Shown here: piece by piece, positions 8,804 through 17,524 of the stretch | How the letters are laid out: every line of letters starts with the position of its first letter | Numbering within the stretch: position 1 is the first letter of the stretch | IMG/VR virus record: IMGVR_UViG_3300046810_000348 | Location: 1 to 20,332 of that record | DNA length: 20,332 nt | Direction: 5' to 3' (one strand) | DNA from: a virus | The notes under the pieces: model-generated | Database searches by the model: none | What the model saw: the letters and a program-made list of their open reading frames with translations, nothing else | Told to the model about the DNA's origin: nothing | Translations under genes and position numbers: made by a program

Positions 8804-8958
8804 GGTTAATTCTCCAGTTCACCCCACGAGTTCACCTGTTCACCTCAGTTCACTAAGCTGGTGAACCGTCCGCTAACACAGTCCCGCGGGTTTCCGACCC
8901 CGTACCCTTCAGATACCCCTAGGGTCCCCGGCGGTTTTCGGCACCCCAGATCGGTGCA
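8804..8958. other. Intergenic region between holin and small terminase; candidate cos/packaging site
   Basis: These 155 bases hold no gene. They contain the GGTGAAC/GTTCACC cluster next to the terminase gene, a C-rich stretch with the palindrome CCCTAGGG near 8918, and a GCACC/GGTGC inverted repeat at 8941-8957 just after the holin stop. In lambda the cos site and its terminase-binding R sites lie immediately upstream of the small terminase gene. The same function here is inferred from position. Confidence 0.35.
8817..8866 (-). repeat. GGTGAAC repeat cluster upstream of small terminase
   Basis: On the minus strand GGTGAAC occurs at 8817-8823, 8830-8836 and 8838-8844, with a one-mismatch copy AGTGAAC at 8848-8854. 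An inverted copy is on the plus strand at 8860-8866. Five copies of a 7-mer in 50 bases is far above chance. It ends 14 bases before the small terminase start. Confidence 0.65.
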
Positions 8959-9303
8959 TCACCCCTGCTCGCCCCCGACTGGCGGGACTTCGCAGACGCC
9001 CAGCCGCTTGGCGGCCCAGCGTTCGTACAACCCGATGGCCACATCAGCACCGGCCATTGCCGTCAGGCAACCCAAGGCGCCCGCCGTCCAGATCGAGATG
9101 CTGGCCGCAATCATCAGCATCATCGCCGACACCCCGCAGACAATGCAGGCACCAGACCGAAGCGCGAGGCGGCGCAGCAATGCCCAGCCTCTCGCTCCAT
9201 CCTTGTCGGCCCGCCACATTTCTCCCGATACGCCACCGACCAGAGCCAGGACGATCACTAACCAAATCGGCATCTCTGCCAGTGCTTGTTGCTCGCTTGT
9301 CAT
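8959..9303 (-). CDS. Putative phage holin
   Basis: This is a 114-residue small membrane protein with three hydrophobic segments at about residues 12-27 (PIWLVIVLALVGGVSG), 51-69 (GACIVCGVSAMMLMIAASI) and 72-93 (WTAGALGCLTAMAGADVAI). Charged loops RADKDGAR and ALLRRLALR lie between them. Size, topology and position before the packaging genes fit a class I holin, which permeabilises the inner membrane at lysis. The ATG at 9303 is preferred over the in-frame TTG at 9309 because AGGGG lies 6 bases upstream of the ATG. No endolysin or spanin gene is next to it, so those may lie after the tail genes, off the left edge. Other small three-segment membrane proteins cannot be excluded. Confidence 0.7.
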   Translation of the reverse strand: MTSEQQALAEMPIWLVIVLALVGGVSGEMWRADKDGARGWALLRRLALRSGACIVCGVSAMMLMIAASISIWTAGALGCLTAMAGADVAIGLYERWAAKRLGVCEVPPVGGEQG

Positions 9304-9320: not shown

Positions 9321-9345
9321 AAAAACCCGGCGCAATGGCCGGGTT
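9321..9345 (-). terminator. Intrinsic terminator upstream of holin (tR'-like)
   Basis: On the minus strand AACCCGGC and GCCGGGTT form a perfect 8-base stem with a 6-base loop, and the T-rich TTTTT run continues from the second arm. It lies between the putative late promoter and the holin gene. It would stop unmodified late transcripts as lambda tR' does, until Q-type antitermination allows read-through. Confidence 0.75.
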
Positions 9346-9398
9346 TGGTGGTGTGGTGCCTGCCGCTCTCTGCGGTCGCACCTATCGAAGATGACTAC

Positions 9399-9427
9399 TT
9401 TTTACAGGTCGATTCCGGTGGCAGCAA
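9399..9427 (-). promoter_or_regulatory. Candidate late promoter (PR'-like)
   Basis: On the minus strand TTGCTG (9422-9427) and TAAAAA (9399-9404) are separated by exactly 17 bases. Transcription would begin near 9392 and meet the terminator at 9345-9321 after about 50-70 bases, before the holin. A Q-like gene lies upstream. The -10 match is only fair, so this rests largely on arrangement. Confidence 0.4.
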
Positions 9428-9446: not shown

Positions 9447-9496
9447 AGTGAATAAGTGGTGAATGTGGGGTGAACGTCTAGCGAATGTAGGCGAAT
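9447..9496 (+). repeat. Five-copy iteron array with about 11-base period
   Basis: Copies of the form RGYGAAY begin at 9447 (AGTGAAT), 9458 (GGTGAAT), 9469 (GGTGAAC), 9480 (AGCGAAT) and 9490 (GGCGAAT). The steps are 11, 11, 11 and 10 bases, about one helical turn. Such in-phase direct repeats are typical of binding arrays for an initiator or activator. The core also resembles the GGTGAAC cluster at 8817-8866. Confidence 0.6.
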
Positions 9497-9528: not shown

Positions 9529-9786
9529 GTCCCATACGTCCCACCTTTCAAAATCGAAGTGGGACGCCTGAGAGCGCCTAAATTAGGGGCTTGGCCCCAC
9601 CGTCCTATCTATTTCTCTCCTATCTCGTGTAAAGGAAGAAATCTAAGAACACGCTTGCGCGTGAAGCGCGCGCACATTGTGCCTGCTACGCATATACGGG
9701 CGGGTGACGTTGCAAGGTGGGACGGTGGGACAGCCCTGTAAAGACAAGGCCCGCCCCTGTCCCACTACGTCAAAACATAGTGGGAC
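9529..9786. repeat. Dispersed GTGGGAC / GTCCCAC boxes
   Basis: The 7-mer GTGGGAC is present at 9559-9565, 9717-9723, 9725-9731 and 9780-9786. Its complement GTCCCAC is at 9539-9545 and 9759-9765, and a near copy GTCCCAT is at 9529-9535. The boxes at 9538-9545 and 9559-9566 form an 8-base inverted pair. I noticed no copies elsewhere in the window. The cluster lies just downstream of Q and the primase-helicase, and could be initiator sites. Confidence 0.55.
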
Positions 9787-13694: not shown

Positions 13695-13714
13695 GCTTGG
13701 ACACCTCTTCGACG

Positions 13715-13743
13715 AATTTAACCTTAAAGGTTATTTTTTGCAA
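13715..13743 (-). promoter_or_regulatory. PR promoter for cro and the early operon
   Basis: On the minus strand TTGCAA (13738-13743) and TAAATT (13715-13720) are separated by 17 bases. The operator at 13719-13733 fills the spacer and touches the -10 box, so repressor binding would exclude RNA polymerase. The same layout is found at PL (16406-16434). Confidence 0.75.
13719..13733. promoter_or_regulatory. Repressor operator O1
   Basis: TAACCTTAAAGGTTA is a perfect 15-base odd-centre palindrome inside the PR promoter. Its centre is 40 bases, about four helical turns, from that of the second copy at 13759-13773. It is the probable binding site of the CI and Cro-like proteins. Confidence 0.8.
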
Positions 13744-13758
13744 TACCGAAATGGACAT

Positions 13759-13773
13759 TCACCTTAAAGGTTA
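13759..13773. promoter_or_regulatory. Repressor operator O2
   Basis: TCACCTTAAAGGTTA differs from O1 at one position. It lies 19 bases before the chosen cI start and probably serves cI autoregulation. I could not find a convincing -35/-10 pair for cI nearby, as is common for activator-dependent maintenance promoters. Confidence 0.75.
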
Positions 13774-13792
13774 TCAACGACACAATCAGCTG

Positions 13793-14440
13793 ATGAACAT
13801 TTCCGATATGCGATTACAAAATTTCCGAAGGGTCATCGCCGAACGCAAGCTACGACTAACCGATGTAGCCGACCTTTTGGGCAAGGCCCCTGCACAAGTG
13901 AGTGCTTTCGGGGGGAAAAACCCAACAAAAGGCATAGGGAATCAAATCGCGCGGGAAATTGAACAAGCTCTAGGCCTGCATTCTGGCTACCTAGATATGC
14001 CATACGGCCTTGGTGAGTTTAATAATGCAACCGTTATATCTCATACCGGTAGGAAGCTTCCTGTGATGGGATCGATTGCCGCTGGCGTTTGGTGCGAGCC
14101 GGACCAGCTATTTGACCCGAGAGACGCGGAAGAATGGATTGATGCGCCAGGACCAGTTGGGCCAAAAGCGTTTATCCTTCGAGTCGAGGGAATGAGCATG
14201 GAACCGAGATTTATAGAGGGGGACAAGATCGTTATTGACCCTGCTCTCGAGGCATTGCCAGGACATTTTGTAGCTGCAAAGAGGGCAAGGGATCAAGCAA
14301 CAACTTTAAAGCAGCTAAGACAAGAAGATGGTGAGTTATACCTATTTGCACTCAATCCCGATTGGCCAAATCGAATCATTAGAATGAACGAAGAGTGGAG
14401 CATTTGTGGCCGGGCCAGATGGAAAATTTCTGATTTATAA
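13793..14440 (+). CDS. CI-type repressor with LexA-like (S24) self-cleaving domain
   Basis: This 215-residue repressor maintains lysogeny and is inactivated by RecA-stimulated self-cleavage. The N-terminal helix-turn-helix is in RRVIAERKLRLTDVADLLGK (12-31) with APAQVSAFGG. The peptidase domain has GSIAAGVW with the probable cleavage bond Ala97-Gly98, GMSMEPRF with nucleophile Ser135, and TTLKQL with Lys173. I chose ATG 13793 because it follows O2 and begins just before the HTH. The frame is open back to 13697, but this would place the operators inside the gene. There is no Shine-Dalgarno, so the mRNA may be leaderless, as is lambda cI. The gene is divergent from cro and convergent with the NACHT gene. 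Confidence 0.85.
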   Translation: MNISDMRLQNFRRVIAERKLRLTDVADLLGKAPAQVSAFGGKNPTKGIGNQIAREIEQALGLHSGYLDMPYGLGEFNNATVISHTGRKLPVMGSIAAGVWCEPDQLFDPRDAEEWIDAPGPVGPKAFILRVEGMSMEPRFIEGDKIVIDPALEALPGHFVAAKRARDQATTLKQLRQEDGELYLFALNPDWPNRIIRMNEEWSICGRARWKISDL

Positions 14441-14486: not shown

Positions 14487-16277
14487 TTAGATAAAGAACA
14501 AACCGCTTACATCTTCTCCCTTTTCAGATTGCCTTTTTTTCATTTTCTGAAGCTCTTCAAATGCAACTAAATATTCGCTACCAATAAAACTCGACAAATA
14601 GGAGTTTGAAAAAACATTCAAATCTTTCGCATCCAACTTTTCGATCTCCTCACACTCTAGGCTACCACCATGTAAATCTAAAAGCTTGGCAAGTTCGGCA
14701 TCCACACCATCATTATAGTTTAGCGTCCTTCCATAGACTCGATTCACAAGCTCAAACAGATAAGATTTATTATTCATACCCCTCAGCATAAAAGCGACGT
14801 CACGCCCATATTCAGAATCGAATGTCGTGATCCCCTTATACAAATAAGAGACTTGTTGCAGTCGCTCCATATCAGTTTGCGCATTAGGTGTCACAACTTT
14901 AAAAACAGCTTCCAAAGCAGGAATAAAGAAATCCTGCTCAATCATATCCTGATTAATATCAAATATCATTGGAATAACATCATCACCATCATTAGCAAAA
15001 GCAACCTTCTCTATCAACTCGAATTTTCGCTCACCAGTAAACCCAACTAAAAATAACGCTGTGAAATACTCTTGGAATGAACGATGAGTAAATGTCACCT
15101 CTAGCCCATCACGCTGCATGATACAAACACTATGCAGAAGATCATTCAGAAAATCTTCACTAGATACTGAAATACCGCTTAGCTTTACTGCTTTGTTTAT
15201 AAATACACTGACATTTTCACTACTGAAAGAATAGTCACCCTCAACATAACTCAATGCACAAAAAGCTGAAAGAATCTTTTTGAAATCATCTATCGGCAGA
15301 CCCGTATATGATTTCCTTCTAAACAAGCTCTTTAAGGAGTCATGCTTATTAAATAAAGTGAGAAAAGCTTGCTCATAGAACAAATGTATTTTGTTTGGAA
15401 TCTCAGCAAATTGCTCATACGTCAAAAGCATCATTGTTAAAAGCAATGGATTTTCCGCAAAGCTTTGGTGCCGTTCATACAACGAAACATCAAGCTCACT
15501 TAAAAACTTCTCTTTGACATCAGAATCATACTTCAGCTTTCCAATTAATTTTTTGGCTTTCTCAATATCTAACGGCTGCATTTCGTATTGGTAAAAATCT
15601 TCCCACGACTCAAAACGAGTATCAAACCTACTAGATACAAGCATCATAATGTTCAGATACTTACCGGAGAGCTTTAACAATTGCCTTTCGAACAACTCCC
15701 TTTTATCCAACGCAACTTCATCAAAGCCATCAAATATAATTAAAACTTTCCCGAGCCTTAAGGAACCCTCCAGCTGCTCCATAGAAAAGCCCGGCTCAAA
15801 ATCTGCGAGCATCTTAAAAATGTAATCTAGGATATCAAGATCATCTAAAACATTGAGATGACGAAGTTCAATAAATACTGGAAAAATCCCTCTGGGCTTC
15901 TCAACCAAATCTAAAAAAACACTTCTACAAAATGTTGACTTACCAGAACCTGCACTACCAACTACAACAAAACGCTTTTTGCTTTCGATGAAATTTATAA
16001 CTTCACCTTCAGACAGAGCCACTCCCCTACTGCTAAGCAAGTCGGTTCTGACGTAAAAATCTCTTAAATTTACAGGCTCCCCTCTGTACAAGAGCGTTTT
16101 CGTTTTCGAGTATTTATCGTAATGACGATAAATGTATTTTGAAAAACAAAGCTCAAACTCAACTTTAAACTTATCAAATAAATTTTTAGACAAACTCTTG
16201 GCACTCATAAAAATAGGAGCACCAAACTGTTTTATAAGTTCAGGAACAATTTTGTTTAGATCAATATCTGTGGACAT
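14487..16277 (-). CDS. NACHT-domain STAND NTPase, NLR-like, likely anti-phage defence protein
   Basis: This 596-residue protein has no homologous neighbour in the phage core. Residues 1-100 form a mixed helical N-terminus ending FYVRTDLLSSRGVALSEGE, which is typical of the segment before NACHT. Walker A is GSAGSGKS (107-114), Walker B LIIFDGFDE (179-187), a sensor-like motif LVSSRFDTR (213-221), the NACHT-associated NPLLLTMMLL (276-285), and winged-helix FTHRSFQEYF (396-405). The last 190 residues are helical, without LRR, TPR or WD repeats, and I see no nuclease or membrane effector. Bacterial NACHT proteins of this short kind are known phage-defence genes. ATG 16277 has AAGGAG 5 bases upstream; a frame to 16394 is not needed. 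Base composition is far more A+T-rich than neighbours, which points to separate acquisition. It lies between PL and PR. Confidence 0.88.
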   Translation of the reverse strand: MSTDIDLNKIVPELIKQFGAPIFMSAKSLSKNLFDKFKVEFELCFSKYIYRHYDKYSKTKTLLYRGEPVNLRDFYVRTDLLSSRGVALSEGEVINFIESKKRFVVVGSAGSGKSTFCRSVFLDLVEKPRGIFPVFIELRHLNVLDDLDILDYIFKMLADFEPGFSMEQLEGSLRLGKVLIIFDGFDEVALDKRELFERQLLKLSGKYLNIMMLVSSRFDTRFESWEDFYQYEMQPLDIEKAKKLIGKLKYDSDVKEKFLSELDVSLYERHQSFAENPLLLTMMLLTYEQFAEIPNKIHLFYEQAFLTLFNKHDSLKSLFRRKSYTGLPIDDFKKILSAFCALSYVEGDYSFSSENVSVFINKAVKLSGISVSSEDFLNDLLHSVCIMQRDGLEVTFTHRSFQEYFTALFLVGFTGERKFELIEKVAFANDGDDVIPMIFDINQDMIEQDFFIPALEAVFKVVTPNAQTDMERLQQVSYLYKGITTFDSEYGRDVAFMLRGMNNKSYLFELVNRVYGRTLNYNDGVDAELAKLLDLHGGSLECEEIEKLDAKDLNVFSNSYLSSFIGSEYLVAFEELQKMKKRQSEKGEDVSGLFFI

Positions 16278-16405
16278 TCCAACTCCTTGTAATAAATGAG
16301 GACAGACGTAGATTCTGCCATTATTTTGCCACTCTGGGCTATTGGCTCGATTACTCCCCATGAGATTGGCAGGACCTAGAGCTACATCGAGCAAAAAATT
16401 CGAGC

Positions 16406-17242: not shown

Positions 17243-17524
17243 ATGGAACGCACCCTCGCCCAAGCAGCCGCTCAACTCGGCCTCTCTCGCCCCAAACTGA
17301 TCGCTCTCATGCGGGAAAAGGGTTTGCTCAAGGGAAACCTGCCGGCGAACCCGAAGCGAGACAAAGCGTACCTGCGGGTCAAGGACAGCCCCTGGTATGA
17401 CGAGAAACACGGAATGCAGTACAGCCAGTCGACTCGGGTGAAGCAGGCCGGTATCCGTTGGCTGGCCGAGCAGTTGGACATCGATTTTCCTGCCATCCCG
17501 GCAGATCGCCGTGACGTGGCCTAG
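17243..17524 (+). CDS. KilAC-domain antirepressor-like protein
   Basis: This 93-residue protein corresponds to the C-terminal KilAC DNA-binding domain of phage antirepressors such as P22 Ant, but stands alone. The pattern is LAQAAAQLGLSRPKLIALMR (5-24), EKGLLKGNLPANP, then a strand-rich YLRVKDSPWYDEKHGMQYSQ and STRVKQAGIRWLAEQL. There is no N-terminal Bro/AntA domain. ATG 17243 has GAGG 7 bases upstream. Its last codons overlap the next small gene. It may interfere with CI or act as a regulator; that is inferred from the family. Confidence 0.8.
   Translation: MERTLAQAAAQLGLSRPKLIALMREKGLLKGNLPANPKRDKAYLRVKDSPWYDEKHGMQYSQSTRVKQAGIRWLAEQLDIDFPAIPADRRDVA

Follow-up and report, generated by a model that had tools for sequence, protein, structure and literature searches.

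Which protein reads the row of short repeats that stands in front of a candidate late promoter in this viral DNA? We analyzed the whole 20,332-nt stretch (hereafter, the window), in which five copies of the heptamer RGYGAAY (AGTGAAT at 9447, GGTGAAT at 9458, GGTGAAC at 9469, AGCGAAT at 9480, and GGCGAAT at 9490) follow one another at intervals of 11, 11, 11, and 10 nt. A first-pass annotation, made from the letters alone, had listed these copies, and a search of the window confirmed every position. On the minus strand, the cores read ATTCGCC, ATTCGCT, GTTCACC, ATTCACC, and ATTCACT. The run of five is the longest same-strand series of RGYGAAY at 10- to 12-nt spacing in the whole window; nowhere else in it do three or more copies stand in phase. 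First-order Markov simulation of the window, repeated 500 times, gave a longest run of a single copy (478 simulations) or two copies (22 simulations).

A phased array as part of a conserved late promoter

On the minus strand, the end of the array is followed after 19 nt by TTGCTG-17-TAAAAA-GTAG (positions 9427 to 9395; Table 1). The late promoter that the first-pass annotation had proposed 20 bases from the array is borne out at this measured distance, and the whole block is conserved. If transcription starts near position 9392, the array extends from approximately -104 to -55 relative to the start. A generic sigma-70 scan made no call at the late promoter because TAAAAA departs from the consensus. 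The terminator hairpin (9-bp stem with 6 GC pairs, and a T-run; RNA fold z of -2.6) begins approximately 50 nt past the promoter, a feature that marks Q- and AlpA-like units. Downstream, the order is terminator, holin-like gene, TerS, and TerL. Upstream of the array, and in the same direction, are a primase-helicase in two parts, Toprim and VapE, and a phrog_4300 gene for a protein of 119 aa.

Table 1. Coordinates of the features discussed, as positions in the window
Feature	Position	Strand	Basis or remark
Five-copy array, 10- to 11-bp period	9447..9496	-	Proposed operator of a phage PrtN-family activator
-35 hexamer TTGCTG	9422..9427	-	Conserved in nearly all relatives
17-nt spacer CCACCGGAATCGACCTG	9405..9421	-	Proposed recognition element of the PA0613-family (Q/AlpA-like) protein
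-10 hexamer TAAAAA, then conserved GTAG	9399..9404	-	Kept in nearly all relatives
Intrinsic terminator	9321..9346	-	Between late promoter and holin-like gene
Holin-like gene (phrog_3897)	8959..9303	-	Opens late operon; homologues annotated holin
PA0613-family protein (phrog_4300), 119 aa	9831..10190	-	C-terminal HTH; NCBIfam NF051483 PA0613_fam, E 7e-52
GTGGGAC repeats	9559, 9717, 9725, 9780; reverse 9538, 9759	both	Motif count
S24-peptidase repressor gene	13697-14440		Domain match
PrtN-family protein (PF11112 PyocinActivator), 105 aa	17683..18000	+	Predicted winged helix; E 1e-28

We compared the window with approximately 165 related loci from viral contigs and phage records and with 75 loci of named Pseudomonas genomes. 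The unit of promoter and terminator is kept in nearly all relatives, and an array with an 11-bp period occurs at the equivalent place, at a fixed distance from the promoter, in almost every relative read. Averaged over 100 distinct arrays, identity was 0.41 at a lag of 11 and 0.36 at a lag of 22, compared with approximately 0.25 at most other lags. The helical phasing claimed for the window holds in its relatives as well. The first-pass annotation had held that its reading would fall if neither spacing nor motif were conserved; we found the spacing conserved, and the motif kept within each of several array types but exchanged between them. The core is ATTCRCC in type A, to which the window belongs, GAGTCCGGG in type B (carried by phages U5, LPPA36, and Haddon, among others), ATTCACCGAG-like in type C, and RTTGYACC in type D. 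The array is thus a real, helically phased, conserved element of the late promoter.

Covariation of the array with a distant PrtN-family gene

Among nearly identical P. aeruginosa phages compared by array type (19 type B and 18 type C loci), most genes from CII to TerL are up to 100% identical across the two types. CII, the DksA-like protein, primase, helicase, the PA0613-family protein, holin, TerS, and TerL were each tested as partners of the array, and none discriminates B from C. A k-mer association scan covering 6 kb on each side gave a signal at the array itself and at a gene at about -5.8 kb, which is annotated as an excisionase in U5 and which we identified as a member of PF11112 (PrtN). 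The protein that tracks the array is therefore a PrtN homologue, located 7.5 kb away in the window and outside the candidates of the first-pass annotation. That annotation had suggested that either an initiator or an activator might bind, and had named the primase-helicase, Q, and the terminase small subunit; the activator option stood, while none of the three named proteins tracks the array.

The PrtN allele agreed with the array type in 81 of 81 typed contigs (34 of type A, 14 of B, 18 of C, and 15 of D). The pair of types A and D alone is weak evidence (2 switches), because these groups are older lineages in which all genes partly track the type. Across 2.2 kb around prtN in 27 type B and C contigs, all 43 perfectly discriminating columns fell inside one prtN stretch of approximately 145 nt, which is the predicted DNA-binding (winged-helix) core of the protein; the flanking genes had no discriminating column at all. 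We also built a tree from the 2.7-kb stretch of primase-helicase and PA0613-family genes located between the array and prtN. The array type switches at least 5 to 6 times on this tree, and in independent switch pairs PrtN followed the array in five of five cases, compared with none of five for the PA0613-family allele. A sign test on these pairs gives a p value of just 0.06 because five pairs exist in all; the column map around prtN is stronger evidence than the five-pair count conveys.

A second sample comprised 68 loci of named Pseudomonas genomes that had not been used in finding the rule. One PrtN position was Arg at 41 loci with an ATTC-core array (and Gln at one more such locus), whereas it was V, A, G, or L at 17 loci with an RTTG-core array. 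Crossing was absent among the loci that the rule could class, several divergent arrays falling outside its classes. PrtN was not found near some loci, either at contig ends or, for example, in L338. Membership in PF11112 is by itself no proof of an activator, because proteins of this family also carry excisionase annotations, some of them beside integrases. Many relatives encode a second, shorter PF11112 paralogue (L174-L178, L192, L195, L215, and L216); this copy, probably an excisionase, does not track the array. The window PrtN-family protein was modeled with AlphaFold2 at a pLDDT of 81, and a fold search with the model returned generic winged helices and no significant match.

In line with these patterns, we consider it very probable that the phage PrtN-family protein uses the array as its operator and, by binding there, would activate the late promoter. 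In the pyocin loci, PrtN is the activator of a homologous unit (PMC8609362), and it shares 49% identity with the window protein over 87 residues.

The promoter spacer and competing explanations of the array

The PA0613-family protein encoded next to the array follows a different part of the promoter. In all 37 P. aeruginosa phage loci, the -35/spacer allele agrees with the HTH allele of this protein (CGCGRT or CGCGKR), an association that rests on 3 independent switches, and each of the four possible pairings of HTH allele and array type (B or C) is represented. Because the PA0613-family HTH follows the spacer and not the array, each half of the promoter follows its own protein. The window spacer also shares GGAATCG, at equal position, with the pyocin promoter behind the PA0613 gene. 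We propose that the PA0613-family protein is a Q/AlpA-like late antiterminator, as suggested by its association with the spacer and by the terminator that follows. Its AlphaFold2 model is poor (pLDDT of 59) and contains a sigma-4-like HTH. The match of this model to the solved AlpA complex was not significant, a fold search gave only sigma-4-like HTHs, and a sequence search against the PDB gave no match.

We considered whether this neighboring protein could itself bind the array, given that its gene is adjacent, that it carries an HTH, and that the repeats stand at a late promoter. The occurrence of type B and type C arrays with both HTH alleles, and the tracking of the spacer rather than the array by those alleles, make this extremely unlikely. 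A coupling of array and PA0613-family protein, first suggested by U5, was ruled out by L031, L042, L070, L085, L086, and L131; in the first five of these, a type D array is accompanied by a window-like PA0613-family protein (approximately 90% identical). The first-pass annotation had also raised a replication origin and pointed to a likeness to the type I iterons of satellite phage P4, which would make the array a set of iterons bound by the phage primase-helicase, much as P4 alpha binds type I iterons. The array does lie in a 500-bp non-coding stretch near the primase-helicase genes, and one of its copies is GGTGAAC. However, the core is exchanged at constant primase-helicase (the helicase proteins of types B and C are up to 100% identical), the array type is independent of the primase-helicase on that protein's own tree, and L338 retains the array although its VapE gene is almost gone. 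An origin reading breaks down on these two counts: array types are swapped with no change of helicase, and L338, almost stripped of its helicase gene, still has the array. Unlike P4 iterons, moreover, the array is fixed to the late promoter, and the window protein is of the Toprim and VapE kind, with no match to a P4-alpha model in Pfam or NCBIfam. Pyocin loci, which are without replication genes, still retain the promoter, the terminator, the PA0613-family gene, and P-boxes. The comparison with P4 is thus unsupported, and we regard an origin function of the array as very unlikely.

The same intergenic stretch contains a better lead. The 334 nt that separate the PA0613-family gene from the array in the window include 6 copies of GTGGGAC, a count to be compared with a maximum of 3, reached once, in 20,000 simulations. 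In type A to D relatives, it occurs 2 to 5 times per 300 nt in this stretch versus 0.06 to 0.23 times per kb elsewhere, and it is absent from the pyocin loci. The GTGGGAC repeats (9538-9786) are therefore the better candidate for a replication origin or helicase-loading site. In the window, the primase-helicase frame is broken by one in-frame stop at approximately 11251, giving two open reading frames; the gene is one long open frame in 84 of the 86 type A loci examined.

Two further explanations concern the terminase and the direction of control. The array could be a second copy of the repeats at 8817-8866, bound by TerS in cos or pac recognition, since GTTCACC occurs in both places. The core does recur at 8817-8866, as the first-pass annotation had reported, but there it is found in mixed orientation at spacings of 13, 8, 10, and 12, and the cluster is a separate element. 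The TerS-proximal repeats vary with TerS type (GTGAAC, GTTAAC, GTTGAC, or TTGAAA) whatever the array type, which leaves TerS binding at the array with an almost negligible probability; the shared GTTCACC is a coincidence. The 8817-8866 cluster is plausibly a cosB-like TerS recognition site near cos. An explanation that retains the PrtN-family protein as the binder is that it keeps the late promoter of the prophage silent, or that it acts as an excisionase-type architectural protein. Some PF11112 genes adjoin integrases and are annotated as excisionases, and the array is far upstream of the -35 hexamer. Nevertheless, the array is found at the late promoter instead of an attachment site, the PF11112 copies that resemble excisionases are a separate, shorter paralogue in those phages, and pyocin PrtN is an activator. 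We consider silencing or an architectural role unlikely, and we infer activation rather than repression.

A proposed two-protein late promoter and its relation to pyocin control

How might the two proteins act together? Under the preferred reading, with the array as operator of the PrtN-family protein, several copies of that protein would line up on one face of the DNA, approximately 55 to 105 bp upstream of the late start, and would recruit or stimulate RNA polymerase at a weak late promoter. The PA0613-family protein, encoded just upstream, would recognize the -35/-10 spacer and allow the polymerase to read through the terminator, as with Q and AlpA. Readthrough would then reach the holin-like, terminase, and structural genes.

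Pyocin regulation offers the closest parallels for the activator half. Pyocin P-boxes are usually four repeats of 10 to 11 nt, located upstream of target genes (PMC4905994), and the phage units share with them a PF11112 protein and tandem 10- to 11-nt repeats upstream of the target promoter. R-pyocin loci have the identical order of PA0613-family gene, promoter, terminator, and holin, and the target is likewise a lysis and particle operon. The differences lie in the details. The window core is ATTCRCC, and relatives carry other phage-specific types; the window array has no match to ATTGnn(n)GTnn(n), the consensus published for P-boxes. The window has five copies, and its array stops 19 nt before the -35 hexamer, whereas pyocin repeats run up to it. 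The phage units belong to temperate phages and have several co-swapped specificities. With the same design and another core, we therefore term the array P-box-like rather than a P-box. Pyocin prtN is under the cleavable LexA-like repressor PrtR, and the window holds an S24-peptidase repressor gene. A record named "Pseudomonas phage sp." (OQ658366.1; our locus L007) has an R-pyocin-like layout, with a PrtN homologue (there annotated excisionase) that has the 49% identity given above, a PA0613-family gene, a similarly built promoter with P-boxes, a terminator, and a holin. Deeper in the pyocin cluster, at 4360 of L168, a second P-box and promoter with the spacer GGGAATCGGCCGG resembles the one that precedes the holin.

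For the antiterminator half, the comparison is with AlpA (alpBCDE), Q21, and lambda Q. In P. aeruginosa, the Q-like antiterminator AlpA recognizes GGGACG, located between -35 and -10 (PMC9371919), after which the polymerase passes a terminator located just downstream (PMC7969949, PMC9371919). Common to these systems and the window are a late or lysis promoter with an intrinsic terminator directly after it and a small HTH protein paired in specificity, as we propose for the window, with the DNA between -35 and -10. In contrast, the PA0613 family has no detectable sequence similarity to solved antiterminators, and the window unit has, as we propose, an additional upstream activator array.

Extended to widespread temperate phages of Pseudomonas, these pairings could amount to a late promoter with two keys, a PrtN-family activator with its array and a PA0613-family antiterminator with its spacer, which recombine separately and block cross-activation; we hold the case for this general scheme to be evenly balanced. 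If it is true, the key specificities would recombine separately, the array and a distant protein core would be exchanged as matched halves, and co-resident prophages and pyocins would be kept from cross-activating one another's lysis genes. The uncharacterized pyocin gene PA0613 would also gain a function; its family is present in databases by name only, and we propose for it the role of late antiterminator. The proposed pairs of protein and element connect a large group of Pseudomonas phages with pyocin regulation (PrtN, P-boxes, and PA0613). We found no description of phage PrtN activators of this kind in the open literature, most subscription journals lying outside the search. The natural swap of a short protein segment and a 50-bp operator located kilobases apart makes the DNA code of the PrtN family directly testable.

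Two other genes of the window were noted. A small open reading frame at 17243-17524, just upstream of prtN, encodes a KilAC/ANT antirepressor domain. Beside the repressor gene, positions 14487-16394 may be a prophage-borne defense gene; the product, of 635 aa, has an NTPase domain of the NACHT type.
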